This document shows, one piece after another, positions 17,911 to 38,223 of a stretch of 57,047 nt of DNA. Under the pieces are notes generated by a model. That model saw only the letters and a list, made by a program, of their open reading frames with translations, was not told where the DNA came from and ran no database searches. Origin of the DNA: a virus; IMG/VR virus record IMGVR_UViG_3300018080_000022, positions 1-57,047 of that record. The stretch is one strand, 5' to 3'. How positions within the stretch are numbered: the stretch's first letter is position 1; every line of letters begins with the position of its first letter. Position numbers and translations under genes: made by a program.

Positions 17911-18708
17911 ATGCAATACAGGGAAAACCCGCTGGCATTGATACTTATCCCGATAGCGCTGCTTGCCGCGGGTGGAACGGCGGCGGCAATCGCGCTCAAA
18001 CGCCGGAAGAAAACGATGGCACCTTCCGGCCCGAGCGAACCGTCATATCCCTATGCCTCGCAGCCGACTATGGTTCCGTCGTCTTCGGAGCCCCCGGCCA
18101 ACGACCCCATGAAACAGATTCAGCAATTCCAGGACAAGTACGGGAAAACCGCACCGGCAGCGGCGTCGGCGGCAAAAAAGGCATGGGAAATACTCGTAAG
18201 TCCGCCGACCTCGGCCGAGAAAATAAAGGAAGCCGCCAAGGAGACCTCCGAACAAAAGGCCGCCATCGATAAGCTCGCGCTCGAAGTCAAACAGAGCGGC
18301 GGGAAACTGCCCGAAGGCGAGAAGATTCCCGGCATAGACGACCCGAGTCTTGAAACCGACAATGAAAAGACAGCCGCGTCGCCAGCCTCGGCGGCAGCGG
18401 GGGCCAAGCAGGCGGCCACGGGCGCATCCGCCGCCGCTACCGGCGCGAAGGTCTTAGGGGTTGGCCTCGGAACGGTGGCCCTTGTCGGGGCCGCGGTCGC
18501 GGTCGCGGTCGCCGGTTTCGAGGCATACCGCAGCCAGCAAAAACAGTTGAAGAAGCTTCACGCCGACTACAAGCTCTGGCGCGCGATGGCCGTGCAGTAT
18601 GTCACGCAGACGACTGACACAAACAAACACATCAAGGCAGTCCAGGGAGAAGTGGACTTCATGAAACAGGCTATACCGAAAATGCAGGCCGCTTTACAGG
18701 GAGCTTAA
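17911..18708 (+). CDS. Two-helix membrane protein with N-terminal ENP motif
   Basis: 265 aa. MQYRENP is followed at once by a membrane helix (LALILIPIALLAAGGTAAAIAL) and a basic KRRKK. The middle is P/S- then A/K-rich and helical. A glycine/alanine-rich second membrane segment lies at about 178-205 (VLGVGLGTVALVGAAVAVAV), then a coiled-coil end (QQKQLKKLHADYKLW). It looks like a virion membrane or DNA-delivery protein. GGAGG lies seven bases before the ATG, and the upstream stop abuts it. Confidence 0.65.
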   Translation: MQYRENPLALILIPIALLAAGGTAAAIALKRRKKTMAPSGPSEPSYPYASQPTMVPSSSEPPANDPMKQIQQFQDKYGKTAPAAASAAKKAWEILVSPPTSAEKIKEAAKETSEQKAAIDKLALEVKQSGGKLPEGEKIPGIDDPSLETDNEKTAASPASAAAGAKQAATGASAAATGAKVLGVGLGTVALVGAAVAVAVAGFEAYRSQQKQLKKLHADYKLWRAMAVQYVTQTTDTNKHIKAVQGEVDFMKQAIPKMQAALQGA

Positions 18709-18710
18709 AG

Positions 18711-19019
18711 ATGCCGATGCAATATGTTAGGGTTGGGAAGCCAGCCGTCGATGGCCTCGGGAGCAACCGCAGCAAGCTCCGCAAGCACAGACGGCAAGCG
18801 TGGGCCTTGATGAACCTGCGACTCGACGAGTTCAACAAGGCAAAGGCAAAGCTCGAAGAACTGATGGCCGAGCACGAATTGCTCACCAAGCAGTTCAGCC
18901 TTTTGGCAAACCAGCTAAAGGCGAAGGGGCTCGACTTCGACCAGATTCGCGTTATAACCGGCGCTCCGAAGAGCGTCGTCGAGGCCAACATGAAAAAACA
19001 GGTCAAGCTAATCGCGTAA
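18711..19019 (+). CDS. Coiled-coil protein, 102 aa
   Basis: MPMQYVRVGKPAVDGLG... then RLDEFNKAKAKLEELMAEHE and LLANQLKAKGLDFDQI, a heptad-like helix. No membrane span. It starts two bases after the preceding gene. Not recognised. Confidence 0.6.
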   Translation: MPMQYVRVGKPAVDGLGSNRSKLRKHRRQAWALMNLRLDEFNKAKAKLEELMAEHELLTKQFSLLANQLKAKGLDFDQIRVITGAPKSVVEANMKKQVKLIA

Positions 19020-19030
19020 GGAGGCGACGG

Positions 19031-19261
19031 ATGAGAAGAGGAAGGTCGAAACTTCCGAGGGGGTATTACCTCGTGAAGACCGCCAAGCACGGCGGACTTG
19101 AGCTTGAGGATTCCATGCCCGCGCTAACCGGCATGGGCCAGGTGAGCGAAGAGGCGGTCGAAAAAGTCGAGGCCGGGCTAACCGCGGCGAAGGTCATCGG
19201 TTACGGCCTGCTCGGCGTCGTGGGATACTTCATCGTCAAGGCAATAGCCCGGAGTCAGTAA
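19031..19261 (+). CDS. Single-span membrane protein, 76 aa
   Basis: MRRGRSKLPRGYYLVKTAK..., basic N-terminus, then a C-terminal membrane helix (VIGYGLLGVVGYFIVKAIA). GGAGG lies six bases upstream, and its TAA overlaps the next ATG (TAATG). A small virion membrane protein is a plausible reading. Confidence 0.7.
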   Translation: MRRGRSKLPRGYYLVKTAKHGGLELEDSMPALTGMGQVSEEAVEKVEAGLTAAKVIGYGLLGVVGYFIVKAIARSQ

Positions 19262-20241
19262 TGCCCTTTCACAGAAACGAAAGCGATTTGGCCTCGGATA
19301 TAAGAATGCACCGGCTCAACAGCGCGTATAAAAATGGCACGCGCCGCGAGCACGCGAGGCCATCTCAGTTCAATAGAGGCCCGCGGGCCACGATGACGCC
19401 GAAGGTCATCGCTAACAAAAACAGGGTCAAAAATGCGTTTAACTTCGAGCATCCGGCCAGGGATACGGAGCTCGGGGCATACAAGGAGGTAGGTATGATA
19501 AGGGGAAGAGTCAAAAGCTCATACAACCTGATGACCGGCAAGGGCGTCAAGTCGGTCAAGCAGATGGTTCTCACCGCCCAGGACAGCGGCCAGCCCGCGG
19601 GGGTAAGCGACTACGTGACGTTGCCCCGCCAGTTGGGCAGCTATGTCACCGTGCCCGAGGGCATGATGGGCGAGGTCACGGCGGAAGAACTGTGGAAGCG
19701 AGACCTCGAAGACCTCAGCAAGGATATTCGCGGCATGCACATGTTCACGACGAATAGCCAGGAAATCCGATACTACAACAAGGCGAAGACCCTCGTGGAT
19801 AACGGCAAGAAAATCTTCGCCAACAACCCGCAGATGTTAGCGGCCATAGCCCCGCTCAACGGCGAGCTCGTCAGGTGGCGAAACGACCGGGCGTGGGCCT
19901 TGACGCAGCAGCAAGGCACGGCCAACGACAAGAGCATCGGAAAAATCCAAGAGAGAATGGTCAACGCAATCAACTATGCCCGCACGGCGATGGGGATTGC
20001 GGCCATCCCAAGCGGCAGCATCCTGCCCGAGATGAACATTCCCAAGGGGCAGTTGCCGAACCTGCCGGGCGCGACGGGCACTCCGGAGCCGACACCGCCT
20101 GCGGTTCCGATTGCGCCGACCCCGGCTGAGAAGGCGCTTGCGCCGCAGTCATGGTTTCAGAAAAACAAAACGCTCGTTGCAGGGGCGGCGCTGCTCGCGA
20201 CGCTCTTAGGCGGATATGTCTGGTATCGCCAGAGGAGCTAA
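19261..20241 (+). CDS. Virion-type protein with C-terminal membrane anchor, 326 aa
   Basis: A long soluble helical part (SKDIRGMHMFTTNSQEIRYY; NDRAWALTQQQGTANDKS), a P/T-rich linker (GTPEPTPPAVPIAPTPAEKA) and a C-terminal membrane helix (TLVAGAALLATLLGGYVWY) ending in RQRS. FANNPQM carries an NP. The tail-anchored form suggests a protein held at an internal virion membrane or in the host envelope during assembly. Confidence 0.6.
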   Translation: MPFHRNESDLASDIRMHRLNSAYKNGTRREHARPSQFNRGPRATMTPKVIANKNRVKNAFNFEHPARDTELGAYKEVGMIRGRVKSSYNLMTGKGVKSVKQMVLTAQDSGQPAGVSDYVTLPRQLGSYVTVPEGMMGEVTAEELWKRDLEDLSKDIRGMHMFTTNSQEIRYYNKAKTLVDNGKKIFANNPQMLAAIAPLNGELVRWRNDRAWALTQQQGTANDKSIGKIQERMVNAINYARTAMGIAAIPSGSILPEMNIPKGQLPNLPGATGTPEPTPPAVPIAPTPAEKALAPQSWFQKNKTLVAGAALLATLLGGYVWYRQRS

Positions 20242-20595
20242 ATGGGAACTCCCGCATACATAAAGATAAACGGGAAGACGGTCGAGGGCGAGTGGATTTC
20301 GCCCGAGGAAGTTCCGTTCATAGCCAATCCGCGCGTGGCGAACACGGCGATGTTTCTTGCCGGTGCTGGCCTTGCGGCTCTCAAGGCGGTGCGCAATATT
20401 GCAAATGCTTCACTCAATCCGCCGCTGAAATCCAAGGTAGTGAGGGCGCTCCCGTGGGCATTCGCGGCGGGGTTGACCGCGGCGATAGCCCCGGCGCTCG
20501 GAAAGGCCAAGAACCCGGTTCGCATCGGTGCCGCGCTGTTGGGGCTCAAGGCGGTAAACGAGATTGTGAGAAAGCCCGAAGAGGAGAGGGCATAA
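20242..20595 (+). CDS. Small three-span membrane protein with NP before each span
   Basis: 117 aa. After a short beta hairpin, FIANP precedes TAMFLAGAGLAALKAV, SLNPP precedes VVRALPWAFAAGLTAAIAP, and KAKNP precedes VRIGAALLGLKAV. The repeated NP-then-hydrophobic pattern is striking. It begins directly after the previous stop. Confidence 0.65.
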   Translation: MGTPAYIKINGKTVEGEWISPEEVPFIANPRVANTAMFLAGAGLAALKAVRNIANASLNPPLKSKVVRALPWAFAAGLTAAIAPALGKAKNPVRIGAALLGLKAVNEIVRKPEEERA

Positions 20596-21333
20596 ATGAC
20601 ATACAGACATAACAGAGCTTACCTGATAGGAAGTAACGAGAGGGCCGTAACCGTTACTTATGATGGGCTCGCAAAGATGTCTCAGGAAAACGCGCTCAAA
20701 GACCCGACATTTTCCGCGGCTTACACCTTGAGAAACCAGATGTCGGCCAGGCGCGACATAGTAGAAACGCTTGCCGCCGAGCTCGAAAAGCAGTACAGGG
20801 AAAAGACGATTGCGCCCGCCGATTATGTCGAAAGACTCAACAAGGCGGAGGCGCTTATCGATGCGTACAACTCCGACATAGCCGAAATGAACGTGGCGCT
20901 TGCGGCGGCGTTAAGCGATGTTCGCACGGAGACATTGAAGGCCCTTATTGACCAGGGCTATGAGCTTCCGCAGGAATGGCTTAAGCAAGCGGGATTGTCG
21001 GGAGTAGTAGTTCTCACTATCGCCGCCGTCGCGCTTATCGCGGCGATGACCGCGGGGATTGCGGTCGCCGCGCCGAAGATATCCGAAATTTTTGCGGCCA
21101 AGGAAAAAATTGAGCTCGAAAGAGAAAAGGTCGCCGCCGAGCTTGCAAAGACTGTTCTCGAAAAAGCTCCCGAAGGCGAAAAGGTGAAGTTCCTCGAAGC
21201 TATTGGCAAAGGACGGCCCCCGAGGATACGGGCGTGGTATGAATATCTTTTCTGGACGGCGCTGGCGGGAGCAACCGCCCTCACGGCGGTGAAGCTTGCT
21301 CCGATGGCGATTAAACCGAGAAGGAAAAAATAA
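20596..21333 (+). CDS. Membrane protein, 245 aa, two spans
   Basis: The N-terminal 120 residues are a helical soluble domain (YTLRNQMSARRDIVETLAAE). Spans lie at about 134-156 (GVVVLTIAAVALIAAMTAGIA) and 218-238 (FWTALAGATALTAVKLAPM), separated by a charged coiled coil, and the C-terminus is RRKK. Directly follows the previous stop. Likely a virion or assembly membrane protein. Confidence 0.65.
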   Translation: MTYRHNRAYLIGSNERAVTVTYDGLAKMSQENALKDPTFSAAYTLRNQMSARRDIVETLAAELEKQYREKTIAPADYVERLNKAEALIDAYNSDIAEMNVALAAALSDVRTETLKALIDQGYELPQEWLKQAGLSGVVVLTIAAVALIAAMTAGIAVAAPKISEIFAAKEKIELEREKVAAELAKTVLEKAPEGEKVKFLEAIGKGRPPRIRAWYEYLFWTALAGATALTAVKLAPMAIKPRRKK

Positions 21334-21334
21334 G

Positions 21335-22180
21335 ATGGCCAATTATCTTTTTAAGGAAAACCCGAGAAGAAAAGGCCGGAGATTGCCGCCAAAGGAACGG
21401 TTCTACTACATGGTCGAGCGGGTGAAGAAGAACCTACATAAGCGCGGATTCCGCCCGAGACCCGACAGCCCGCATCGCACCATCCCGCAGGTCGCCAAGG
21501 CGATAACAGGTGGCATGTGGTGGGGGACTTTCGACGGCATTTCTCCCACAATGAAACGAAAAATTCTCAAGGAAGTTATCAGCAACCGCGCGAAGGGCAA
21601 GGTCGCCGTCGTAACCGGGCGCAAGGGTTCCATATCAAAGGCCGCCGTCAAACGGGCGATAGGCGAAACGGCTGCAAAGCGGCTCTACAACAAGCTCGAA
21701 CTCACCAAGACGGAAATCGACGAAGCCAGGCAACTTCTTAAACGCGGTATGCCCGCAATCGAACGTGCGCGAAGGCGCGTCGCCGCAAACCCCGAGCTTC
21801 TTATCATCACCGGCAATCCGGGCGTTGACCTCATGGACAAGAAAAAGCCGCCGACGCTCGCGGACTTCAAGAAAGCCTACCCCGAGCTCTGGAAAAAAGC
21901 GCTTAAGATGCACAGGCGTTTCCACGGCGTTGACCCCGAAACCGTCCAGCTTCAATGGGTGGAGTCGGATGTGCCGCCGATAATGGTTAAGATGGGCGAT
22001 GCGCCCGACGTAACCTACCACGTCAAGGGGAATTCGAGAAAGCAGAAAAAGATACCATTTAAGCACGACTACAAAGGCAAGGTGCATGTTTGCACCGACA
22101 TAAACGGCAAGGCGATTTTTCATATCCCTGATGCAAAGAAGGGAAGGAATGTTCGCGTAAGTGATTGGGTGCGAGGTTAG
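21335..22180 (+). CDS. Basic late protein with N-terminal KENP, 281 aa
   Basis: Starts MANYLFKENPRRKGRRLP at 21335 (AAGGA upstream; an in-frame ATG at 21296 lies inside the previous gene). Very basic N-terminal half with helices, then VAANPELLIITGNPGVD, a linker with two NPs, and a C-terminal domain (LADFKKAYPELWKKALKM; VQLQWVESDVPPIMVKMG) resembling a small phage domain with a PELWKKALKMHRRFHG motif. Two domains joined at NP suit a processed precursor. Confidence 0.6.
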   Translation: MANYLFKENPRRKGRRLPPKERFYYMVERVKKNLHKRGFRPRPDSPHRTIPQVAKAITGGMWWGTFDGISPTMKRKILKEVISNRAKGKVAVVTGRKGSISKAAVKRAIGETAAKRLYNKLELTKTEIDEARQLLKRGMPAIERARRRVAANPELLIITGNPGVDLMDKKKPPTLADFKKAYPELWKKALKMHRRFHGVDPETVQLQWVESDVPPIMVKMGDAPDVTYHVKGNSRKQKKIPFKHDYKGKVHVCTDINGKAIFHIPDAKKGRNVRVSDWVRG

Positions 22181-22188
22181 GAGGGGAC

Positions 22189-23376
22189 ATGTGGACTTTT
22201 CTCGTCAATCCGCCCGAGAAGGGAGGCAAGAAGGTGAAGATGTCGAAGGCAGGCAGAAAATACAAGAGCCTGGTAAAGAAACTTGGCGTCACGAAGGGGG
22301 CCAAAGCATATAGAAAGTGGAAAAGGGAAGAGAAGGCGAAGGGAAAACCTTCCAAGGCCAAAGCGAAAGGAGGAAATCGTATGGCCAAGAAAACCAAGAA
22401 GAGGGCAACGGGCTACAAGGCGCTCGTCAAGAAACATGGCGTGACGAAAGCCGCAAAGATGTGGCGCGCAAAGGGCCACAAGCCTGCCAAGAAAAAGGCG
22501 GGGAAAAAGAAGTATGCCGCCAACCCGAAGAAGAGGGCGAGCGGCTACAGGGCTCTCGTCAAGAAGCACGGCGTCACGAAAGCCGCAAAGATGTGGCGCG
22601 CTCGCGGCCACAAGCCCGCGAAGAAATACGCGGCCAACGCATGGAAGAAAGACAGGAAGGGGCATGCAATTGCCTCGGCCGCCGGATGGGCGCGGCGTAA
22701 GGGCATTCCCGTCCCCATCTACCTCGCTCAGCGCGGATACAGCAAGAGCGCAATCGACCGCTACATCAAGAAGCATGGCGCGGTCGGTTCGAGCAAGAGG
22801 TCATACACCAAGAGCTACCCGGTGAGAAGCGCCAGGTACGCCATGAATCCGCTCGAAGGCGCGGTCGAAACCGTCAAGAGCGTGTTCGCGGTCGAGACCG
22901 TGAAGACGGTCATGGGCGTCGGCGTAGGCTTCATGGGAATGGCGCTCGGCAACGCGGTAGTAAGACGCCTCAAGCCGGACGCCGGAACCCCGGTCGTCAT
23001 CGCCGGAGAGTTCGGCGGTTCGCTCGTTGCGGGCGCGGTTTACGCCGTCGCCACGAAGGATGTCGCCAAGGGCGTCTTGACGGCAACATCCGGCATCGCG
23101 CTTTCCGTCTTCAAGATGGCCTGGACGAAGTACGTCGCCGGAAGAACCATTCTCGGCCTGGCTATGCCGGGACTGTCCGATTACGTCGAGCTCCCGTACA
23201 CCGCCGGGATGGGCGATTACGTCGAGCTCCCGTACACGGCGGGAATGGGTCAGTCGCTTGACACGGGCATGGGCCAGTTCCTTCCGCCCGAGGCGGCAGA
23301 GATAGGCCAGTTCATTCCCGAGCAGTTCGGGGAGTACAGCGTCGGCATCGGCGAGGAAGCCGAAGTCGAATACTAA
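22189..23376 (+). CDS. Triple-repeat basic protein fused to membrane domain
   Basis: 395 aa, MWTFLVNPPEKGG, SD GGAGG. Three copies of a ~30-residue basic unit follow (GYKALVKKHGVTKAAKMWR and variants); copies 2 and 3 are nearly identical, while copy 1 has diverged. They are separated by KKYAANP and ended by KYAAN-A. After a small domain (IPVPIYLAQRGYSKSAIDRY), RYAMNP introduces a glycine/alanine-rich membrane part (VGVGFMGMALGNAVV, GGSLVAGAVYAVA) and a tandem DYVELPYTAGMG repeat. It could be a string of DNA-condensing peptides and a membrane protein, liberated at NP sites. Confidence 0.6.
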   Translation: MWTFLVNPPEKGGKKVKMSKAGRKYKSLVKKLGVTKGAKAYRKWKREEKAKGKPSKAKAKGGNRMAKKTKKRATGYKALVKKHGVTKAAKMWRAKGHKPAKKKAGKKKYAANPKKRASGYRALVKKHGVTKAAKMWRARGHKPAKKYAANAWKKDRKGHAIASAAGWARRKGIPVPIYLAQRGYSKSAIDRYIKKHGAVGSSKRSYTKSYPVRSARYAMNPLEGAVETVKSVFAVETVKTVMGVGVGFMGMALGNAVVRRLKPDAGTPVVIAGEFGGSLVAGAVYAVATKDVAKGVLTATSGIALSVFKMAWTKYVAGRTILGLAMPGLSDYVELPYTAGMGDYVELPYTAGMGQSLDTGMGQFLPPEAAEIGQFIPEQFGEYSVGIGEEAEVEY

Positions 23377-23386
23377 CAAATGTAAC

Positions 23387-23424
23387 GGAATAGGGCGCAT
23401 TCCAAGCGGCCCTTGCTTGCGCCC
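23387..23424 (+). promoter_or_regulatory. Leader hairpin of the first capsid-type gene
   Basis: GGAAT-agggcgc-ATTCC and, alternatively, GGGCGC pairing with GCGCCC. The same arrangement stands before the paralog at 24089-24130, so leader and gene were duplicated together or the structure is functional. GGAGGAG follows before the ATG. Confidence 0.55.
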
Positions 23425-23459
23425 GATAGCAGGGGCAGAAAGTTGACAGGAGGAGTAGT

Positions 23460-24080
23460 ATGACCAGGAGAATCGCACCCGCGCCAGCGGGCGTACCGGC
23501 GCTTGAGCCCGTTCGTCAAGACCTGTACGACACCAAGCTTCAGGACGGCACGGTGTCAACGCTCGAATTCTTCCGGAATCCGGGCATCGCGGGCCTCGCG
23601 GAGCTTGCAACCAACATGCAGGCGAACGGACAGCTTCCGTATCCGCAGCAGTTCCACGTCTTCGGTCTCAATCTGGAGCTCGTCCCGTATTTCCCCGAGG
23701 AAGCTCAGACCGGCGTGGATGAGGCGCATTGGCAGAACAAGAAGAAGGTTCTCGAAACCGCCTTCTTCCGCTTCCACATCGGGAGCAAGACCTATCTCAT
23801 CGACCCGGCGAAGAGAATTCCGGCTTCGCTCGGCCCGGTCGGCTTCGGAACGGGCGCGCAGGCGGGCATAAACGCCTTCCCGACGAACGGGTTGCAGGAC
23901 ATCCAGCATTACTACGATGTCACAATCCGCCAGGGCGGGAAGATTAAGCCCATCCACATTCCCGCGCAGCAGTCGTTCTACGTCCAGGTCGTGTGGCCGT
24001 TCGGCAACCCGGCCGTCGAGGGCGGCGGATGGGAAGTCAGGGCATACCTCGTCGGTATTCTCTGGAGAGAAGTTCAATAG
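23460..24080 (+). CDS. Jelly-roll-type capsid protein, paralog 1
   Basis: 206 aa: MTRRIAPAPAGVPALEPV, YDTKLQDGTVSTLEFF, TNMQANGQLPYPQQF, KPIHIPAQQSFYVQV and a final VRAYLVGILWREVQ. I recall this YDT...LTFF...GQLP...LxGxLxR layout from small, beta-only proteins of uncultured tailless phages that are thought to be major capsid proteins. The 206-aa size fits a single jelly roll. About half of its positions match the neighbouring paralog by eye. It is the best candidate for a major capsid subunit; structure prediction would decide. Confidence 0.65.
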   Translation: MTRRIAPAPAGVPALEPVRQDLYDTKLQDGTVSTLEFFRNPGIAGLAELATNMQANGQLPYPQQFHVFGLNLELVPYFPEEAQTGVDEAHWQNKKKVLETAFFRFHIGSKTYLIDPAKRIPASLGPVGFGTGAQAGINAFPTNGLQDIQHYYDVTIRQGGKIKPIHIPAQQSFYVQVVWPFGNPAVEGGGWEVRAYLVGILWREVQ

Positions 24081-24088
24081 CATTTTGA

Positions 24089-24130
24089 CGGGATAGGGCG
24101 TATCCTGTTTTCCTTTTCCGCTTGCGCCCG
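24089..24130 (+). promoter_or_regulatory. Leader hairpin of the second capsid-type gene
   Basis: GGATAGGGCGTATCC and GGGCG/CGCCC repeat the design at 23387-23424 with matching changes in the outer pairs (GGAAT/ATTCC becomes GGAT/ATCC). Confidence 0.5.
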
Positions 24131-24169
24131 AGTGCGGAGAGGAACAACCGTTTGAAAACGGAGGTCATT

Positions 24170-24793
24170 ATGACCAGGAGAGTTGCACCCGCGGCGGCGG
24201 GCGTACCGGCCCTTGAGCCGATAGCTCAGGAGCTTTACGACACGAAGGATTATCCCATCGCGGGAACCGGGACGCTGACGTTTTTCCAGAACCCGTCCGC
24301 GGTAGGGGAAATCGAGACCAACATGGTGGCTTCGGGACAGCTTCCGTATCCGCAGCAGTTTCATGCCTTCGGCATCTGCTTTGAGATATTCCCGAACTAC
24401 GACGAGGCCGCAGCAATCGGCACGGACGTCACCTGGGCCGTCGAGAAAGTCAAGCTTCGCGAGAAGTGTTTCGCGCGCCTGACAATCGGCTCCAAAGACT
24501 ACCTGACCCTTCCGGGAATCCACATTCCCGAGGGCGTCGGCCTGACCGGGGTAGCGGTCGGCGACAACGCCGGAAGCAACCAGGTCGTAGTCAATCACGG
24601 CTTCCAGGACATCAAGCACGGCTTCGAGCTGACCGTTCCCCAGCAGGGGAAAATCAAGCCCATCCACATCCCCGCGCAGCAGTCGTTCCGCGTGGAACTG
24701 AGATGGCCGATTCCGCTCGCGCTCACAAGCGTCCAGGAAGCCGTCAAAATCAGGATGTACCTGATTGGCGTGCTCTGGAGAGAAGTGCAGTAG
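24170..24793 (+). CDS. Jelly-roll-type capsid protein, paralog 2
   Basis: 207 aa: MTRRVAPAAAGVPALEPI, TLTFFQNPSAVGEIE, TNMVASGQLPYPQQF, HIPAQQSFRVELRWP and VKIRMYLIGVLWREVQ. The paralog differs from the first mainly in the middle loops. Two different single-jelly-roll subunits are known from phages such as P23-77, where they form the capsomers together; that comparison is by analogy only. GGAGG five bases before ATG 24170 sets the start. The next 160 bases hold a GC hairpin, suggesting this gene ends a highly expressed transcript segment. Confidence 0.65.
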   Translation: MTRRVAPAAAGVPALEPIAQELYDTKDYPIAGTGTLTFFQNPSAVGEIETNMVASGQLPYPQQFHAFGICFEIFPNYDEAAAIGTDVTWAVEKVKLREKCFARLTIGSKDYLTLPGIHIPEGVGLTGVAVGDNAGSNQVVVNHGFQDIKHGFELTVPQQGKIKPIHIPAQQSFRVELRWPIPLALTSVQEAVKIRMYLIGVLWREVQ

Positions 24794-24847
24794 CAATAGC
24801 CGCGCAACTTCGGCTGTCTCACCGAAAAAGCGTGTCTTTTCTTCGCG

Positions 24848-24877
24848 GGGGCCGCTCCGTTGGAGCGGGGCGGCCCT
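24848..24877 (+). terminator. Hairpin after the capsid-type pair
   Basis: CCGCTCC and GGAGCGG form a 7-bp stem with loop GTT (24852-24868), extended by GGGG/CGGCCC outside, and followed by TTTGAAAAAAC. With only three T it is a weak terminator or an mRNA-stabilising hairpin that would leave more capsid mRNA than downstream mRNA. Confidence 0.45.
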
Positions 24878-24956
24878 TTGAAAAAACAACGAGACAAGCG
24901 ACGCTCCGGGTAGCAGGGGAGCGAATTATGTCAACCCTTTGTTAGGAGAAAGAGAC

Positions 24957-25724: not shown

Positions 25725-25748
25725 CAGTAGAGACAAAGGGGTGAGAAC

Positions 25749-26381: not shown

Positions 26382-26389
26382 GAGGGAGC

Positions 26390-27337: not shown

Positions 27338-27347
27338 GGAGATTCAT

Positions 27348-28661: not shown

Positions 28662-28662
28662 C

Positions 28663-28908: not shown

Positions 28909-28915
28909 GTGAGAC

Positions 28916-29711: not shown

Positions 29712-29713
29712 CG

Positions 29714-30694
29714 ATGGCGACGTATTATATGCCCGACGATTTTGCCGATATAGCGACATTTATTGCCGCAGCGGTGTCGGGCGCAGACAAGCTTATTGTT
29801 CGCGACGGCACGTGGACGGGGGCCAATAACCGTGGGCTTTCTCCCGGCAAAAATGTTGTTATCGAGAGCGAGAATGGATGGGTTAATTGCATACTCGACG
29901 CTGAAAATCTCGACCGCCACTTCGTTTTTTCGGCTGGCGAATCCACGGCGTTTGTAGTAGATGGATTCCAGATTATAAACGGCAATCCGGGCGGAACTAG
30001 CTTCGGAGGCTCGATTGTCGTTACAAACGGCGCACCCAAATTCCAGAATATAGTCTTTTTCGACAACTCGACGAACGGAAATCATGGCGGTTGTATCTTT
30101 TGTTCGGGCGGCAGCGCAGACCCGTCATTCTGGAATTGCCTGTTTTTTAACAATGTTGCAGGCGGCGGTGGAAAAGGCGGTTGCTGCTATGCGTATAATG
30201 CCGGGTGCAATCCCGGCTTTGCAAGTTGCACGATAACCGCAAATTCGGCTCCGGGCGGAAATGGCGGAGGACTTGCCGGTGATTCGTGGGGCGGTGCTTA
30301 TATCTACAACACCATTCTTTGGGGGAATACGGCAGGCACATCAGCCCCGAACTTCTATCTCGGCTCAAGTCCCGTTGGCCGCGCCTACAACTCCTGTTAT
30401 GACCTGGTTGGAATGATAGGTAACTTTATAAGCAATACCGCGTGCGTTTTTACAGACCCGCTCTTGGTCGCCGGGGGCTTGGGCAATTATTATCTAAGCC
30501 ATATCGCGGCGGGCCAGGGCGCGGACAGCCCTTGCATCGACGCGGGCAACCCCGCTTACGCATTGGCGGATTGGAACACCTTAACGACGAGGACGGATGA
30601 CGCTTTGGATGTCGCCCCGGTTGACATAGGCTTTCATTGGCCGCTGAGCGGCTCCGGAGTCGCCAATACTATGATGATGCAGATGGTGCCTTAG
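29714..30694 (+). CDS. Right-handed beta-helix tailspike-type protein
   Basis: 326 aa. Successive short repeats (KNVVIESENGWVNCILDAEN; FVVDGFQIINGNPGGTSFGG; PKFQNIVFFDNSTNGNHGG; PSFWNCLFFNNVAGGGGKGG; FASCTITANSAPGGNGGG) each read strand-turn-strand with stacked N, F and G positions, the hallmark of a parallel beta helix of the pectate-lyase type with DSPCIDAGNP near the end, as in right-handed beta-helix repeat proteins. Cysteines stack in several coils. As the last spike gene it is the best candidate for receptor binding or surface-glycan cleavage; no catalytic set can be named. Confidence 0.75.
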   Translation: MATYYMPDDFADIATFIAAAVSGADKLIVRDGTWTGANNRGLSPGKNVVIESENGWVNCILDAENLDRHFVFSAGESTAFVVDGFQIINGNPGGTSFGGSIVVTNGAPKFQNIVFFDNSTNGNHGGCIFCSGGSADPSFWNCLFFNNVAGGGGKGGCCYAYNAGCNPGFASCTITANSAPGGNGGGLAGDSWGGAYIYNTILWGNTAGTSAPNFYLGSSPVGRAYNSCYDLVGMIGNFISNTACVFTDPLLVAGGLGNYYLSHIAAGQGADSPCIDAGNPAYALADWNTLTTRTDDALDVAPVDIGFHWPLSGSGVANTMMMQMVP

Positions 30695-30710
30695 CAACAA
30701 GGAGAGTAGA

Positions 30711-30992: not shown

Positions 30993-31217
30993 ATGCCAGA
31001 GCAGGAAGGCTACAAAGCGGTATTAAAGGCCAACAACCTGAAAGGTGCGCTGGTCTCTGTCCGCGAAGCCTCTGAGCATCTGGAAAGGGCGGTCGCTCCC
31101 GCCCTTCATAAAAAATGTAAGGAGCTCATCGCAGATATAAAGCAACATGCCTTCGACGAGCTCCACCGCGAATACCCGGAACTATGGAAAGGATTTAGTG
31201 ATGAAGTGGTTGACTGA
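30993..31217 (+). CDS. Small soluble protein in the lysis block, 74 aa
   Basis: MPEQEGYKAVLKANNLKGAL..., helical, no membrane span. It starts directly after the previous stop and overlaps the next gene by 17 bases. Not recognised. Confidence 0.5.
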   Translation: MPEQEGYKAVLKANNLKGALVSVREASEHLERAVAPALHKKCKELIADIKQHAFDELHREYPELWKGFSDEVVD

Positions 31218-31536
31218 AAATTACATGGTAGTCGTGTTTCTCGTGACAACGCTTATCTCCGTCATTACCGCGCTTCTCAAGCACATGGGCAAGAAGAACG
31301 CCGCTGAGGCGCTTGAGAAGGTCAAGGACATGCTGCATCAAACCTTCGGCAATGTCGAGGCTTTGAAGGTGCAATGGAAGAAGAGCGGCATGGAGGACAA
31401 ATACGGGCACATAGGCGAAATCTTCGCGTCGATAAACAGCGAAGCGCAGCTTGAAGATATTCTTAAAGTCGCGTATACTGAGTGGCAGAAGGAGCGCGAG
31501 AAGAACTGGAGGCCGGTTAAAATCGAGGAAAAATGA
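31201..31536 (+). CDS. Holin-like membrane protein, 111 aa
   Basis: MKWLTENYMVVVFLVTTLIS..., an N-terminal membrane helix of about 20 residues, then a charged soluble part (AEALEKVKDMLHQTFGNVEA). GGAAAGG lies upstream; GTG 31198 is an alternative start one codon earlier. With the GTG-started protein it forms a pair of single-span lysis-type proteins. No endolysin was recognised nearby. Confidence 0.5.
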   Translation: MKWLTENYMVVVFLVTTLISVITALLKHMGKKNAAEALEKVKDMLHQTFGNVEALKVQWKKSGMEDKYGHIGEIFASINSEAQLEDILKVAYTEWQKEREKNWRPVKIEEK

Positions 31537-31578
31537 AAATATACTTTGACAGCGAAACAGGTTTCAAGGAGGTTAAGT

Positions 31579-31875
31579 ATGAAGAGGCTTTGCTTGATAG
31601 CGATATTGGCGGTTATCTGCACGGGCTGCATCCCGCTGATGCACAAGACGGTGGCGGAGCAAACGGTGAGGATGGACAAGAACCTTCACGAGCTCCTTCC
31701 CGATTATCGCCTCGTGCTGAATGACGAGCTCGCGGCGGTGAAAGGCATGGATGACGGCGAGGAGAAGACGAAGCTTCTCGAAGATATCAGCCATGACCTT
31801 CTCCTTCTCGATGCCACGCTGATGCTCAGCGAGGACATGCGAAAGACCGCGGACGTGACGCTGGAAGGAAAATGA
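31579..31875 (+). CDS. Small lipoprotein (possible outer spanin)
   Basis: 98 aa from ATG 31579, AAGGAGG six bases upstream. MKRLCLIAILAVICTGCIP is a short signal peptide ending in a CTGC lipobox-like site (imperfect: cysteine at -3), followed by a helical mature part (DEKNLHELLP-type, EEKTKLLEDISHDLLLLD). A small lipoprotein behind holin-like genes recalls outer spanins and would imply a Gram-negative host. A 63-codon frame starting at 31533 (ATGA overlap) runs into this gene in another frame; I do not call it. Confidence 0.55.
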   Translation: MKRLCLIAILAVICTGCIPLMHKTVAEQTVRMDKNLHELLPDYRLVLNDELAAVKGMDDGEEKTKLLEDISHDLLLLDATLMLSEDMRKTADVTLEGK

Positions 31876-33803
31876 AAAAAGCTCCGAAAGTAAGGATAGA
31901 ATACTACAACGAGTATACCCGCAAAATGAAGTACTCGATAGGGGACTATCGCTATGAGGCGACCGGCATACCAGTCGAATTTTTCAAGCACGTTCGTTAC
32001 CAGATAGATAAGAAGCGATTTGGCCGCGCCATCAAGCTCCTCGACGGCATACCCGGGGAGATGAAGAAACGCATTAACGCGGAGGAAAACATGAAAAACT
32101 TAGTCCAGCGGGCGACGGCCCATGCGATAAACGAATACGGCGAGAGATGCAAGCCCAAGAAGGCATCGAGGAAAAAGAATCCCGCAGGAAACCTCACCAA
32201 AGAACAAGAAAAATTTCTCAACATGAATTGGCAGGCAATCAGAAAGCACATCGACGGCCTGCAATACAGCGTACATATTACCCGCAAGCCAGAATGGACA
32301 TCCGACCATAGCGGCAAGGTTGAGGTAAAAATAATCGACAAGGAAACGGGCGAGGAGTACCCGAGAGAAGCCGATATAATGGTTACCGGGGGCGGCTTCA
32401 GGGTGCATGTCACGTTTATGGGCAAGCTCTACGAAATACATGAAATAGCGGCCCTGATAAACCCTTTTCACAAAGTGCCCAAACACGAAAGACACGTAAG
32501 AAACCCCCTCAACCGGCGCGAATGGAACTCGCGGATAAACAAGGTTCAAGCCTACATTGAAAAAGCGCGCGGATATCTCGCCAGCGACCCTCACAAGGCC
32601 GAGGAGGAAGCTTATCAAGCGCTCGGACTCCTCGAAGGCATCGAACAAGAGGGCAAGTCAATTATAGGCGCTTCGCGTGAGAAACGCGAAATCGTCATAA
32701 AGCTCCGCGCCATGCTCAATCAGATAATCGGGTACGCCGACAAAAGCCAGGGCAGGGGAGTCCCGAATCCGCTTACCCAAAGCGAATATGATGCTCTTCT
32801 TGCCAAGATTTACCATTCCGTTGACTTGGCCGAAAAGGAAGTGGGATGGGGTAATATCAGAGATGCAGTCGAGCGCATTAACCGTGCTGATGGATTGATG
32901 GATGCCGCCTTCGGGGCACCATTGGTTAAGGGCGTCAAGCTGAAAAAGAAATATAGCGGCTTAAATGCCAGGTTGAGAGATTTACAGCAGAAGGTGCGAA
33001 GGTACATCCCTAAAACCGCCCCAAATCCGGGAGAGGAATCATTCGAAGAAAAAATGGAAAGACTTGCGCAACATATAGGCATAGATAAGTTGCGTAAAAT
33101 CATTCCCGTCAAAAAAGAAAGAATAGCTGCGGCCCTTGCGGCTGGAGATGAACATCTGAACTCCATACCGCTTTATTTGTGGGACATAGCGGCGGGCAGA
33201 TTGGTAACGAGCAGATATGCAACGGGCAAACCAAGGTTCGGAAGCAAAGTCAAAGTAGGTTTTGAGGAGCCCTGGGGCAAGAAAGCAAGAGGGCTGTCGC
33301 TCTCCGAAAGAGTTTGTATTCTGAAGCATGTGGCCAAATATCATTTAGGAAAACAAGCCCCGAATCCGGGAGGGACGGAATCGAAGCCATTAAAGGTGAA
33401 GGGTGCTCCCAATTTAAGAATTAGCTATGAATTCCTCGGGTACGACAGCCCGCAATGGCAAACGAGACAAGGCTGGATGCATCCTCATTACCGTATAATC
33501 GTCCATCACAAGCGCAAGAAAGAAGCCTTCGATTATTGGGGCAGCTACCGCGACTACCAGGAAGGCAAGACGACGCTCGACCGTATCGAGCTCATCGAAG
33601 CGTTTATCATGGTTATCGAAACCGTCGTATACGGCAGGATGACCTTGCGCGACTTCACGCTTGAGTTCGGGTACGCCTCCGCCGACGCCGCGAAAATGCC
33701 GTGGCACGCCTCCAAGTTATACGGAAAGAAATGGAGTAAATTGGGGTATCGCAAGAACCTCTACAATCTTATTAACAATGTCAGGGAAGCTTACGACCTT
33801 TAG
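31872..33803 (+). CDS. NP-punctuated multidomain late protein, 643 aa
   Basis: A string of five to six ~90-110-residue segments separated by KKNPAGN (about residue 102), LINPFHK and VRNPLNR (195, 211), GVPNPLTQ (298), TAPNPGEE (384) and QAPNPGGT (497). The last segment (RIIVHHKRKKEAFDYWGSYR to RMTLRDFTLEFGY) matches a domain I recall as a free-standing small phage protein. Others: a MNWQAIRKHIDGLQYSV domain, a helical ALLEGIEQEG-type bundle and a KKERIAAALAAGDEHLN domain. No membrane span. The architecture fits a processed polyprotein or a 'polyvalent' injected protein. ATGA overlap with the lipoprotein. Confidence 0.65.
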   Translation: MKKAPKVRIEYYNEYTRKMKYSIGDYRYEATGIPVEFFKHVRYQIDKKRFGRAIKLLDGIPGEMKKRINAEENMKNLVQRATAHAINEYGERCKPKKASRKKNPAGNLTKEQEKFLNMNWQAIRKHIDGLQYSVHITRKPEWTSDHSGKVEVKIIDKETGEEYPREADIMVTGGGFRVHVTFMGKLYEIHEIAALINPFHKVPKHERHVRNPLNRREWNSRINKVQAYIEKARGYLASDPHKAEEEAYQALGLLEGIEQEGKSIIGASREKREIVIKLRAMLNQIIGYADKSQGRGVPNPLTQSEYDALLAKIYHSVDLAEKEVGWGNIRDAVERINRADGLMDAAFGAPLVKGVKLKKKYSGLNARLRDLQQKVRRYIPKTAPNPGEESFEEKMERLAQHIGIDKLRKIIPVKKERIAAALAAGDEHLNSIPLYLWDIAAGRLVTSRYATGKPRFGSKVKVGFEEPWGKKARGLSLSERVCILKHVAKYHLGKQAPNPGGTESKPLKVKGAPNLRISYEFLGYDSPQWQTRQGWMHPHYRIIVHHKRKKEAFDYWGSYRDYQEGKTTLDRIELIEAFIMVIETVVYGRMTLRDFTLEFGYASADAAKMPWHASKLYGKKWSKLGYRKNLYNLINNVREAYDL

Positions 33804-33816
33804 AAAGGAGTCGGTT

Positions 33817-34206
33817 ATGCCTATAATGATGGGTAGCCAGGGCGGAGGGCTCACGAATTCGCTCGCGACCGGGAACCCGCAGGCGGCGGAGAGAAGCCAG
33901 GTCGAGAAAGTTGCGCGCGTCGTCGCGCTCGCGCAACAGGGCCAGGGCCAGCTTACCAAAAAGCAGGTAAACATTCTCAAGAAGATTCAGGTTGCGCGAA
34001 ACAGGCACCTGAAAGACCAGGCGGCGTGGCAAAGGAAATGCGCGGCCCACAGGGCAAACATGGACAAGCTCATAGCGGAACTCGACGGCCAGAAACCCGT
34101 GCCGACAGGCAGGTTCGCGACCGCCGCGACCGCCCCGAGGGTGACCGGAGAGACCAGGCGAAGGGAAGTATCGAGGCGAAAGGCGCTTCGAGCGATTAAG
34201 AGGTAA
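33817..34206 (+). CDS. Basic late protein, 129 aa
   Basis: Starts MPIMMGSQGGGLTNSLAT at 33817 (AAAGGAG six bases upstream). A flexible N-terminus with TGNPQAAE, a helical basic middle (KKQVNILKKIQVARNRHLK) and an arginine-rich end (RRREVSRRKALRAIKR). DNA-binding or packaged internal protein is a guess. A family A element follows its stop. Confidence 0.55.
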   Translation: MPIMMGSQGGGLTNSLATGNPQAAERSQVEKVARVVALAQQGQGQLTKKQVNILKKIQVARNRHLKDQAAWQRKCAAHRANMDKLIAELDGQKPVPTGRFATAATAPRVTGETRRREVSRRKALRAIKR

Positions 34207-34209
34207 TTT

Positions 34210-34272
34210 ATGTCTCTCGCCGTGCCTCGTAGGCGAGGCAAGGCTGGCGACGCAGTTGTTCTGCGAACAACT
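34210..34272 (+). repeat. Family A two-hairpin spacer, copy 1
   Basis: ATGTCTCTCG box (34210-34219) right after a stop codon, hairpin TGCCTCG-TAGG-CGAGGCA (34223-34240), linker GCTGGCGACGC (34243-34253), hairpin AGTTGTTC-TGC-GAACAACT (34254-34272), then TAGGAGG and the ATG at 34285. All parts recur, with different hairpin sequences, on the other strand at 38.6 and 46.1 kb. Confidence 0.8.
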
Positions 34273-34284
34273 TAGGAGGTTATC

Positions 34285-34659
34285 ATGTCGGTAAAAAACG
34301 AGCTCGACCGGCTTAAGAAAGCCTACGAAGAAATCAAGAACGACGACGAGGCGAAGGCAATCTTCGAAGAGGCGAAGCAAATCATCGACGGCTTTCTCGC
34401 CAAGGGCGACGACGATATCGAGAGCAAGCTGACCGGCTACGCCGACGTGGACGAAACGCTCGTCCTCACGAGCAAGGGCGCGAAGGTGCGAAAAGCCTAC
34501 GTCGCCCGAGTCAAGGCGATACATTTTCTCACAAGCGCGTTGCAGCTAATCTCGAAGTACACGCCGGTCTTGAATGAGGCCGTGGATGCGGCGAAGGAAC
34601 TCACCAAGAGCGCGAAATCGGCGGCGAAGAAGAGTCTGTCCCGGAGGAAGAAGAAATAA
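34285..34659 (+). CDS. Helical late protein with basic tail, 124 aa
   Basis: MSVKNELDRLKKAYEEIKND..., all-helical, ending KSAAKKSLSRRKKK. Preceded by the family A element with its SD at the hairpin base, so its translation may be set by that structure. Abuts the 1187-aa gene (next ATG follows the TAA). Not recognised. Confidence 0.6.
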   Translation: MSVKNELDRLKKAYEEIKNDDEAKAIFEEAKQIIDGFLAKGDDDIESKLTGYADVDETLVLTSKGAKVRKAYVARVKAIHFLTSALQLISKYTPVLNEAVDAAKELTKSAKSAAKKSLSRRKKK

Positions 34660-37600
34660 ATGGAAAGCCCGACGAAATTGCATGGCATACACGTTACCAG
34701 CGACCCGTCGCCGGTATACGACGTGCTACGCAAGGGCTCCGATATTTCCAAGGGCCGGGCGGCTGGCAAGGTCGGCGACCTCGGCAGTTCCGGCCTCTAC
34801 TTCAGCCAGGTTCCTCAGTTATGGACTGGCCGGGCCTATGACAAGTGGAACTTTCTCGTAAGCTTGTCGAAAAAGAAACGCGCCGAGCTCGCCGATAAAC
34901 TGATGAAGGAACTGCGCGAGGAACGCGATGCCAGGTACATCAGCAAGTTCGAGCTCGAAGCCGCACTTAACTACATAGATAGTTATGTTGAACATGACAG
35001 TCCACATGCAATAGTGATGCTTGCGGGCCAGCCGTATAACATAGCGTTCTGGAAGCAGGAATGGTTAAAGCCCCTCGGGATAAAGCAGACGAAGCCACCG
35101 ATGGAAATCCCGGTCGAGGCGGAAGGCTTGTTCGCAGACCTCACGAACAAGAGTGTTTCGCCTGAACTGATAGCGGAATTGAAGGCGCAGGGGTATGACG
35201 GCGCTTACCATCGCGGCGACATGATTAACTTGCCGCAGAGCGTCGTATGGAACACGAAGGCAATTAAGCGGTTTGGAGACCTGGTGATGAAGGCTAATCC
35301 GAAAAAAGGCAAGCGCTCCAAAAAATACCTCGAAGAGCTTATCGACTATGGCGGCGAGCTTCGCACCAGGGGCAGTATCATCAAGGAGCTTCAGAAGCAA
35401 GGCGTTCCACAGAAATACATAGACGCATACATGATGGGCGCGAAGACGGTCGATAATCCGGGGTATCTCCCTATATTCGCGGCGGGGATAGCTTCAGGCA
35501 TCGCCAGCGGTGCGGCGTTCGCAGTCACGGCAAATTATCTCAAGGAGCGGAAGATGAAAAATCCCGAAAAATCTTTCAAAAAAATGGCGATAAGGCTGCT
35601 TCCCCAGGAGGGATACCTCTTGTACGCGGCATACATGTCGCATTACACGGGGCGGGAAGGATACTGGCCGGACTATTACATGGCCGAAGGGGAGTTTTCC
35701 GAGGAGCCGATGACAGAGATTTGGGAAGTTCCGATAGACCTCGCCGTCAAGCTTCAGGCCCAGGGAACGTCTCAGCAGTTCTTCGGCGACGGCTACGAAG
35801 CCTACAGCGCGCTCCTGAAAGCAGGCAAAAAAGCTAATCCGGGATATGCCGACAACCCGATACAGATAACGCTCCATCGCGGCAGCTACCCGACGATGAT
35901 AAGCTCCGAGGTTGCGAGCATTCTTCGCGCTGGCAGGCGCGGAACCATGAAGCCATCCGACTACAAGGCAATTCTGCGGGCCGAGTACAAGAACATTGGC
36001 CGCGGCGGCGGGTATTCCTCGGGCGATATCTACAAACGCAGAGACGGCATGATGACGCTCGAAGAAATCTTTAACAGCGAGATAGGAGCCTTCATCCTGC
36101 GCGTGAAACGCGAAACCGCCAGCAATCCGCAGTATGCCCCTCTCACCGATGAGCAGATAGCCATCCTAAAAGAAGCCCATGCGAGAGGAAAAGCGGAAGC
36201 CCGCAACTCCGCAACACGTATATTTATCAACGGACAGAACTACAACGCATCTACGGGAGAAGTCCTGCCAAAAGGCATCAATGTAATGTACCAAATGGTG
36301 TATTGGGATTTCACTCGCGATACCGCGAAAATGCTCAAAAAGTTTGTGCAAGACAACAATCCCGGCCAGAAAGTGACCATGAATTACCAGGCCGGTACGG
36401 CCAGCAATGCGGGACATGTTAAAAACTCTCAAGACCCTACAAAACAGGAAATGGTGCGTTTTCTGAAAAAGCAATACAAGGGCCTCATGGACGCATCAGA
36501 TATCAAGACCGAAGGCGAGATAGCTATTTACTGGTTTGCTAACCATTATCATGGCGGTCAATGGACTAACCTGTATTCGGTGTTAAGCACGAGCCCATAT
36601 AGTCCGGGGCCTATTACCACGCTCGAAAGCGAAGGCGACGCCGTTAAGATGATGTATGAAGACCTGGTAGAAGAGTTCGGGGGCACCGCCAGCAATCCCG
36701 AGAAGCCCGGCGTAGTCTGGCCCGTGGGTGCGAAGTTATATGATGGCCGGGGAAAGCCGGTGGGCGTATGTCTCGATACGCCGAACGCAATCGCCAAAGC
36801 CATGATGGAACACCCGGAGGTGCAAGTCGCACATACCCTTCTCGGGGTCAAATCGCGGGCGGAATACGCGAGTCGGATGCAGCCCTGGAATAAAGCTAAA
36901 AGCCATTTCCGCGCGATGGAAAGCAACCCCGAAGGCTATTATGGCTGGAAGAACTACGAGACGTGGAACGTGTCTCTTTGGATGCAGAATGACGAGTTCT
37001 GGCATGATGTAGCCATTTACTCCCCCAATTACAAGCGCTTCAAGGATGCTATGATAGGCCGTCACGGGATAACAGAGACTCCGGACGGCGTAAAGCTGCG
37101 AAGCACGAAGCTCGACCGTAAGGCGCTTGACAAGCTCATTCTCGACCTCGGGGGCGGCAAGGAAGCAATACGAAAGCGCCGAGATGAGGCCGCAAGAAAA
37201 CGTATCAGAAAACACAAGGAAGCCGGGAAGTTTGCGCTTATAAGGGATAACAAGGTTCTCTTCGAGGGCACGGAGAATGAATGCCTTGTTTTTCTACAAA
37301 GACACCAAGGCCAGTCATGGGACTACGCCTTCAGGTACGGCGGATACAAGCTCATTCCCATAAAAGACCTTCCGTCAGGTGTTATCCGAATACCGAAGGG
37401 AATGACCGAGACCGGCTTCGCATACAACCCGCAGAACACTCCCTGGGGCAGGGCTCAGAGCCAGCGCAAGCTCGCAAAGGGCGTTACATGGGTGTCTACG
37501 GCGAGCCACGGTGGGATGATGGTCTCCGAAGGCTTCGCCAAAAGACATTTAAGCAAAGAGGCCCGGAAACGCGCCGAGAAATACGGCAAATACTACTGCT

Positions 37601-38223
37601 ACGAGGAAGATGTCGCTTGGATGATACCGGCCTGGGAGCTTCCGGAGATATGGGACGGACTTTTCGAGCACATGGAGCAATCCACCCGCCAGGAAAGACA
37701 AACATATCTGCTCGAAGGGCTTTCGATGTGGAACGCGGACTACCTGCTCGACACGCATCACACTCCCATCGAGCCCCAATACGGCATGTGGAGGAAACGG
37801 CAGGCCGAAAGAAAATTAAGGGGGATGAAACACCCGAACCTGATTGTGGCTGCTCAGAGAACCGACGACCCAAACATAACACAGGTCTGGACGGCGGACG
37901 ACGAGATTCACTTCGTTACATCCGAAAGCTACGGCCGCAGAGACCCGCGATACCCGTCATACCTGACCGATATGGTTCTGTCTCACCCGCCGACGCCGAA
38001 AGGCGTGGGGCCTGCGGGCTTCGTATACAACCCCGGCGAGATGACGCTGGCAGAGCACGCGGAAGCCTGGTGGCGTGAGCAGGGCAGGAAGGTTCCGAAG
38101 CGCAACACGAAGAAATGGCGCGAAATGTATGAGAAGTGGATAAGGTTCGCCTTCAAGGGTTTTGCCAAGAATCATGATAACCGGCTTGACGCCGGGGGCC
38201 GAGGCTGTATAGGCCCGAAGTAA
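34660..38223 (+). CDS. Giant NP-punctuated polyvalent-type protein, 1187 aa
   Basis: Segments in order: residues 1-210, an ADP-ribosyltransferase-like domain (KLHGIHVTSDPSPVYDVL; DLGSSGLYFSQVPQLW; AQGYDGAYHRGDMINLP), ended by VMKANPKKG; a basic helix; VDNPGYL and a membrane-like AGIASGIASGAAFAV; MKNPEKS; KKANPGY (391); TASNPQY (487); NNPGQK (566) and ASNAGHV, then a YWFANHYHGGQWTNLYSVL domain; TASNPEK (677); MESNPEG (754), then GWKNYETWNVSLWMQNDE (DUF7249-type); FAYNPQN (922), then TPWGRAQ...SHGGMMVSE...CYEEDVAWMIPAWELP (DUF7007-type); VYNPGEM (1123) and a final short helical domain. Recognised domains start at NP sites. The layout resembles polyvalent proteins injected with phage or plasmid DNA. 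Domain names are by motif recall. Confidence 0.7.
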   Translation: MESPTKLHGIHVTSDPSPVYDVLRKGSDISKGRAAGKVGDLGSSGLYFSQVPQLWTGRAYDKWNFLVSLSKKKRAELADKLMKELREERDARYISKFELEAALNYIDSYVEHDSPHAIVMLAGQPYNIAFWKQEWLKPLGIKQTKPPMEIPVEAEGLFADLTNKSVSPELIAELKAQGYDGAYHRGDMINLPQSVVWNTKAIKRFGDLVMKANPKKGKRSKKYLEELIDYGGELRTRGSIIKELQKQGVPQKYIDAYMMGAKTVDNPGYLPIFAAGIASGIASGAAFAVTANYLKERKMKNPEKSFKKMAIRLLPQEGYLLYAAYMSHYTGREGYWPDYYMAEGEFSEEPMTEIWEVPIDLAVKLQAQGTSQQFFGDGYEAYSALLKAGKKANPGYADNPIQITLHRGSYPTMISSEVASILRAGRRGTMKPSDYKAILRAEYKNIGRGGGYSSGDIYKRRDGMMTLEEIFNSEIGAFILRVKRETASNPQYAPLTDEQIAILKEAHARGKAEARNSATRIFINGQNYNASTGEVLPKGINVMYQMVYWDFTRDTAKMLKKFVQDNNPGQKVTMNYQAGTASNAGHVKNSQDPTKQEMVRFLKKQYKGLMDASDIKTEGEIAIYWFANHYHGGQWTNLYSVLSTSPYSPGPITTLESEGDAVKMMYEDLVEEFGGTASNPEKPGVVWPVGAKLYDGRGKPVGVCLDTPNAIAKAMMEHPEVQVAHTLLGVKSRAEYASRMQPWNKAKSHFRAMESNPEGYYGWKNYETWNVSLWMQNDEFWHDVAIYSPNYKRFKDAMIGRHGITETPDGVKLRSTKLDRKALDKLILDLGGGKEAIRKRRDEAARKRIRKHKEAGKFALIRDNKVLFEGTENECLVFLQRHQGQSWDYAFRYGGYKLIPIKDLPSGVIRIPKGMTETGFAYNPQNTPWGRAQSQRKLAKGVTWVSTASHGGMMVSEGFAKRHLSKEARKRAEKYGKYYCYEEDVAWMIPAWELPEIWDGLFEHMEQSTRQERQTYLLEGLSMWNADYLLDTHHTPIEPQYGMWRKRQAERKLRGMKHPNLIVAAQRTDDPNITQVWTADDEIHFVTSESYGRRDPRYPSYLTDMVLSHPPTPKGVGPAGFVYNPGEMTLAEHAEAWWREQGRKVPKRNTKKWREMYEKWIRFAFKGFAKNHDNRLDAGGRGCIGPK

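Follow-up and report, generated by a model that had tools for sequence, protein, structure and literature searches.

Asn-Pro joints between exchangeable cassettes in two giant viral proteins: a candidate phage polyprotein system with a transglutaminase-fold protease

Introduction

Two late genes of a virus represented by an IMG/VR record of 57,047 nucleotides (the whole stretch analysed here, hereafter the window; the virus is denoted W) encode giant proteins of 643 and 1187 amino acids (aa) that are punctuated by Asn-Pro (NP) dipeptides, and the question arises whether these dipeptides separate domains, mark sites at which the chains are cut, or both. In most phages, small accessory proteins are encoded by separate genes, or a few of them are fused. 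The initial annotation of this DNA had counted 17 NP sites in the two proteins, a number that proved exact, in open reading frames (ORFs) that are both intact, and had suggested that one gene could yield many peptides through the action of a virus-encoded cysteine protease.

The virus, its relatives and its late genes

The late genes of W, so labelled, like the early ones, from gene order, lie on the plus strand from about position 14885 to 38223 and are flanked on both sides by minus-strand genes. Most of their products have no PHROG or Pfam match, and no terminase, portal, tail protein or packaging ATPase was recognised among the late proteins searched. The accessory genes of W include those for a radical SAM protein like spore photoproduct lyase (5080-6027), a D12-class (Dam-type) methylase (38623-39576) and ThyX (56085-56780), and a tRNA-Ser(cga) is found at 50880-50963. 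The product of 29714-30694 is an NG-rich, possibly beta-helical protein, and the matching late position of a relative (L004 8426-9307) is occupied by a repeat protein that appears Kelch-like by eye; the two are candidates for swapped receptor-binding proteins.

Our scans recovered a single syntenic relative, R (IMGVR_UViG_3300029258_003280, 55.5 kb), which is circularly permuted with respect to W. A third virus, M, is present in pieces, in several contigs of at least 3.7 kb (L113, L119, L120 and L142), within the MAG Candidatus Omnitrophota RBin_191. Capsid, giant-2 and protease queries against viral contigs yielded no further relatives. The hosts of W are probably bacteria. Capsid and giant queries detected M in one of 384 genomes of the phylum of this MAG, and no CRISPR-like array was seen near the six examined matches of the first 20 kb of W to the same genomes (a single short match came from the following 18 kb); thus, an Omnitrophota host is a lead only.

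NP excess and the joint motif in the giants

Giant 1 (31872-33803, plus strand) contains six NP dipeptides where its composition predicts 1.2, and giant 2 (34660-38223, plus strand) contains 11 against an expected 2.4, which jointly amounts to about 4.5 times the expectation; in 20,000 composition-preserving shuffles of these sequences the maximum was 13, and the observed 17 was never reached. When the four giants of W and R are pooled, no other dipeptide with an expectation above 1 is as over-represented as NP (36 vs 7.8 expected, z 10.1), the runner-up being HP (z 4.0). Control dipeptides are at or modestly above expectation (SP, 14 vs 10.3; TP, 13 vs 8.8; DP, 9 vs 9.7; PN, 11 vs 7.8), so that composition and helix capping both fail to explain the excess, generic capping being disfavoured specifically by DP, SP and TP. 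The same controls bear on the view that NP linkers are uncleaved hinges, the giants being polyvalent proteins of the ordinary sort that function as a single chain and NP being a favoured flexible joint reused by recombination: NP would stand at cassette borders under this reading as under a cleavage model, yet a hinge requires neither the exact dipeptide nor an aromatic residue at -3, and SP, TP, DP and PN are not comparably enriched.

With respect to the sequence around the joints, the pattern x-[A/S/P/x]-N-P given in the initial annotation rests on real NP sites but is too loose, as the giants favour [FYT]-[AV]-x-N-P, with G at -4, F, Y or T at -3 and A or V at -2. An aromatic residue occupies -3 at 13 of the 36 giant NPs vs 6 of 72 control dipeptides. 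The giants of W and R contain no NPGP, and 2A-like ribosome skipping was rejected on this ground. Self-cleavage, in which cyclisation of Asn would break the N-P bond without a protease, has a precedent in the Asn-Pro autocleavage known in FlhB-type proteins; however, the FlhB motif NPTH is missing from the giants of W and R, and autocleavage requires a folded context, which some 11 unrelated joints would hardly all provide, so that we regard this mechanism as the least probable of those weighed here. No peptidase family was matched in the giants, and a test for effector domains (ART, nuclease, methylase and the like) recognised families of unknown function only. Profile searches against the PDB yielded nothing. 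In an AF2 model of giant 2 the NP sites lie in coil, but the model (pLDDT 34) is too poor to count or to be used for fold search.

Exchange of cassettes from NP to NP

When the giants of W and R are divided at NP, 36 modules of at least 25 aa result. Either homology spans nearly the entire module, from one NP to the next (for example, over 167/167 residues, over 202 aligned columns for 201/202 residues, and over 75/77), or the module lacks a clear counterpart. Of 28 internal homology breakpoints, 20 fall within five residues of an NP, compared with a mean of 5.6 and a maximum of 14 for random positions in 5000 trials, breakpoints common to several virus pairs not being independent.

The R orthologue of giant 1 (419 aa) is devoid of the W cassettes 103-196 and 385-497. 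The joints at residues 103 (32178-32183; all joints and cassettes are on the plus strand), where the cassette 103-196 begins, and 197 (32460-32465) are specific to W; those at residues 211 (32502-32507) and 299 (32766-32771) are kept in R, and that at residue 498 (33363-33368) is kept in M. Three alternatives are found at the joint at residue 385 (33024-33029), namely a 113-aa cassette in W, an unrelated stretch of 73 aa in M and none in R.

Giant 2 has an R orthologue of 1518 aa with 15 NP, in which a central block is replaced relative to W, and M fragments with eight and five NP, one of them shared, that were read from two contig pieces and not joined. The joint at residue 213 (35296-35301) is a homology breakpoint with both R and M, and a 35-aa hydrophobic, membrane-type cassette from NP 266 to NP 301 (35455-35562; hydropathy 1.71) is kept in both. 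The double joint NPGYADNP (residues 393-400; 35836-35859), which precedes the IQITLHRGS cassette, is found in M as NPCYADNP and is absent from R; further joints stand at residues 489 (36124-36129) and 567 (36358-36363). The NPEKPGVVWP cassette (residues 679-755; 36694-36924) aligns with R over 75 of its 77 residues at 84% identity, and is followed by a DUF7249 plus phrog_38200 cassette (residues 756-922; 36925-37425), a DUF7007 cassette (residues 923-1123; 37426-38028) and a WWRExGxxVP cassette with the tail (residues 1124-1187; 38029-38223). Recognisable segments had been placed right after MESNP and FAYNP, and it is directly there that DUF7249 and DUF7007, respectively, begin. The boundary between the DUF7249 and phrog_38200 modules carries no NP in W and R. 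The M protein is a mosaic, with cassettes of the R type as far as residue 486, followed by the NPCYAD-NPIQITLHRGS cassette of the W type, for which R has no equivalent, then the phrog_38200 module, which starts with NP because the DUF7249 part before it is missing, then the DUF7007 and WWRE cassettes and finally a new cassette.

By our reading of the alignments, NP is kept at comparable joints except three (R1 73, R2 1499 against W, and M 588). At paired sites the flanks are 33-67% identical, the 100% identity at N and P there following from the selection of pairs. At the DNA level, the AAT codon is used at 36 of 51 giant NPs vs 14 of 40 elsewhere (p 0.001), and five joints contain GCCAGCAATCC; microhomology could therefore play a part in cassette swaps. 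Conceivably, short shared DNA (AATCC, GCCAGCAATCC) could seed the exchange and NP could be a by-product of recombination that has no role in the protein. However, all eight Asn-Pro codon pairs occur and NP stays despite synonymous differences at orthologous joints, so that the protein motif is what is kept; moreover, small proteins that show no exchange also carry NP close to their N-terminus. We therefore hold a pure recombination by-product to be highly improbable.

Four of the cassette families are separate small proteins in unrelated phages. In cyanophage S-RIM4, DUF7249 makes up a protein of 73 aa, whose Met is aligned to the P of NP; Cellulophaga phage phi46:3 encodes the phrog_38200 module as gp046 (50 aa); a Bradyrhizobium phage has DUF7007 as a separate protein of 204 aa (tblastn E 0.05, with the motif residues aligning); and the WWRE module is found as small free ORFs in two IMG/VR contigs (L019 and L020). 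A DNA-pattern scan retrieved 77 other DUF7249 loci, several near-duplicates included, nearly all of which encode short proteins. At 28 of these 77 loci the nearest in-frame start codon falls exactly at the N or P position of W, and NP occurs within 12 residues upstream at one (MTNPDEL); a genome scan for NP-preceded DUF7249 found nothing. Given that these loci mostly have no NP just upstream and that the linker in L060, an unrelated fusion carrying DUF7249, differs from the NP joint, the dipeptide belongs to the joints of the W/R/M lineage and not to the domain. The different linker of L060 also speaks against the uncleaved hinge.

As read from the alignments, then, the giants are chains of cassettes that are gained, lost or swapped from NP to NP. 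The part of the original proposal in which NP is a domain boundary in a polyprotein-like chain is strongly supported by these swaps among three viruses, by the free-standing homologues and by the conservation at the protein level.

NP in other late and early proteins

The frequency of NP per 1000 residues is 9.6 in the giants, 4.3-4.7 in the other late proteins and 3.2-3.3 in the early proteins, with observed/expected ratios of 4.6, 1.7-2.0 and 1.6-1.9, respectively; the other late proteins thus resemble the early ones, and the count signal is confined to the giants. The C-terminus of the primase-helicase (minus strand, 6987-7260) repeats DPASNPATPQ, with NPANTAN-type repeats in the relative, and this repetitive tail inflates the early count. 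The notion of an NP signal across all late proteins, accordingly, holds only weakly: by count it fails outside the giants, but an aromatic residue at -3 is over-represented at the other late NPs (19/55 vs 5/62 early, Fisher 4e-4; 10/28 vs 3/31 in W alone), the effective sample being smaller because W and R orthologues are not independent. A score from all four residues before NP does not separate these late sites from early ones (p 0.39); the separation is by the aromatic at -3 (and -3 with -2) only.

The NPs reported in small late proteins are real, and most are kept in R and M where sequence is available, the exceptions being KKYAANP, missing from both, and LNPP, missing from one. A small membrane protein (17911-18708, plus strand, as are the following) begins with MQYRENP, which is MKYSDNP in R and M. 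Another membrane protein (20242-20595) contains FIANP and KAKNP, which are kept, and LNPP, which is lost in M. The protein encoded at 21335-22180 has the N-terminal sequence MANYLFKENP (MANYLFKNP in R). A basic repeat and membrane protein (22189-23376) contains MWTFLVNP (MWVFLANP in R and M) and RYAMNP, which is kept, and it is here that KKYAANP is kept in neither R nor M. Its 132-bp repeats at 22396-22633 (84% matches) encode KALVKKHGVTKAAKMWR and are possibly a DNA-binding part fused to the membrane region. Two tandem paralogous candidate capsid proteins (23460-24793) each carry FFxNP (residues 40/41), kept in R and M; an AF2 model of the candidate capsid protein (pLDDT 40) is too poor for use or fold search. 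NP as a rule before membrane helices was rejected, with 2/8, 3/8 and 1/10 cases in a crude hydropathy scan.

That candidate virion membrane proteins carry the motif close to their N-terminus, and that it is repeated along the giants, would suit a docking or sorting tag that is read by a carrier or by the membrane assembly machinery and loads proteins into particles without cutting. For such a role one tag per chain would be enough, yet every swap point has one, at the cassette borders, and we consider this explanation improbable.

The protease candidate and kinship with SSIP-1

Near the head of the late gene run lies a gene (17287-17910, plus strand) for a candidate transglutaminase-fold cysteine protease (Pfam Transglut_core, 1.9e-12). 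Its triad C128/H161/D180, described as intact in the initial annotation, is indeed so and is conserved in R, M and, as aligned, gp34 of Salisaeta icosahedral phage 1 (SSIP-1; NC_017983, L143). Peptide- and DNA-pattern scans for the protease retrieved only R, unrelated reading frames and remote transglutaminase-like proteins, and among 50,697 phage records gp34 is the only phage homologue (two entries of one phage; tblastn 1e-9, hhalign probability 97.8%).

The SSIP-1 record annotates gp34 and the 2319-aa gp43 as structural, and this phage has been grouped with tailless, membrane-containing viruses with two major capsid proteins (PMC4958249). Similarly to W, it possesses tandem paralogous structural proteins of about 210 aa, gp45/46 (about 206 aa in W; the match is weak, hhalign E 0.004, probability 8%), a giant structural protein, gp43, and an N-terminal MRENP in gp41. 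In gp39 (GFLDNP) and gp41 (VRENP; L143 24501-26612), NP stands shortly before a C-terminal hydrophobic stretch, as in some W membrane proteins. In contrast to the W giants, gp43 is not NP-punctuated (3 NP vs 2.5 expected); an ATPase, gp40, is present, whereas a crude scan for motifs in W and in the greater part of R found no convincing Walker A ATPase besides the primase-helicase; and most other SSIP-1 proteins have no detectable similarity to W. Given the weak capsid match and the failure to find a packaging ATPase, W is treated as a possible distant relative of SSIP-1 and not a member of its group; by sequence comparison, the W late genes (17287-17910 and 23460-24793; cf. L143 21296-22210) may represent a lineage distantly related to this phage. 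As gp43 is free of NP punctuation, either the NP joints arose within the W/R/M branch or the protease is not their reader; a giant listed as structural that has no such punctuation also favours uncleaved hinges.

Proposed mechanism

The motif and its enrichment, its position at joints, the exchange and conservation, the free-standing homologues and the intact protease are seen directly, whereas cleavage, the responsible enzyme, the exact bond, packaging and injection are inferred; on cleavage, as on the other late proteins, the initial annotation went too far. NP joints are probably protease cutting sites, and we propose, with a probability slightly below one half (about 0.47), that the giants are polyvalent-type polyproteins the NP joints of which are cut by the virus protease. 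Under this proposal, small phage proteins that elsewhere are separate genes would be strung together as cassettes by short linkers ending in [FYT]-[AV]-x-N-P. The transglutaminase-fold protease would recognise this motif and cut at or beside N-P during particle maturation, freeing separate small proteins that would travel with the virion and enter the host, and similar sites may serve to trim short N-terminal leaders of some virion proteins. In favour of the proposal, we count the specific excess of NP and of the aromatic at -3, the swapping of cassettes at NP and its conservation, the DUF7249 loci elsewhere, and the conserved protease triad, together with the annotation of the homologue gp34 as structural. 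Against cleavage, we count the general disfavour of most proteases for a proline after the scissile bond, the lack of NP excess in SSIP-1 gp43, the NP-less DUF7249/phrog_38200 boundary and the three unconserved joints.

If cleavage does occur, the virus would be able to make, and perhaps to load, many proteins together in a plug-in fashion, and new functions could be gained by dropping a cassette between two NP sites. Furthermore, cassette borders would be predictable from sequence in uncultured viruses. SSIP-1, which has been described and encodes a protease of the same family, offers a route to a direct test.

Comparison with known systems

The polyvalent proteins that phages and conjugative elements encode combine many unrelated fused domains, are mosaic among relatives and have been proposed to undergo proteolytic processing (Iyer et al., 2017; PMC5512222). 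The W giants likewise hold unrelated domains in one polypeptide and are mosaic between relatives; against the 2-15 domains of independent origin per chain that characterise polyvalent proteins, they display four families that are separate elsewhere and some ten or more cassettes in giant 2. They differ in that the candidate protease is a separate gene, that the swap points have one common motif, and that there is no in-chain peptidase, a frequent if not universal component of polyvalent proteins. The 2017 study, in the text of which the words "transglutaminase" and "linker" do not occur, attributes processing chiefly to zincin-like metallopeptidase domains located in the polypeptide itself and also records the transfer of uncut, full-length chains (PMC5512222), which makes the uncleaved linker the main rival, one that we nevertheless judge rather unlikely. 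If the joints are cut as proposed, the motif and the candidate protease would be a first specific handle on how polyvalent proteins may be taken apart.

The nearest experimental analogue of the proposed NP cutting is, by analogy of function, the prohead proteases of the T4/phiKZ/SPN3US type, which recognise a short motif and trim several internal and ejected head proteins (PMC10052503). In contrast to what is envisaged for W, these enzymes, which are different proteases, remove mainly N-terminal propeptides from separate proteins, and no chain of accessory proteins is cut apart. Features of processed polyproteins that are apparent in the W sequence are a conserved motif at the borders of independent modules and a virus-encoded candidate protease with an intact triad.

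In the polyproteins of RNA viruses and retroviruses, one ORF gives many products by way of a conserved junction motif and a virus protease. By comparison, the cassettes of W resemble accessory proteins that are optional and that close relatives exchange, and their cleavage is proposed. That a prokaryotic DNA virus employs a genuine polyprotein strategy, with a dedicated protease and one motif turning two ORFs into more than 12 exchangeable, particle-carried accessory proteins, is a tentative idea that falls somewhat short of even odds; there is nonetheless a fair chance that the giants of W form a true phage polyprotein system.
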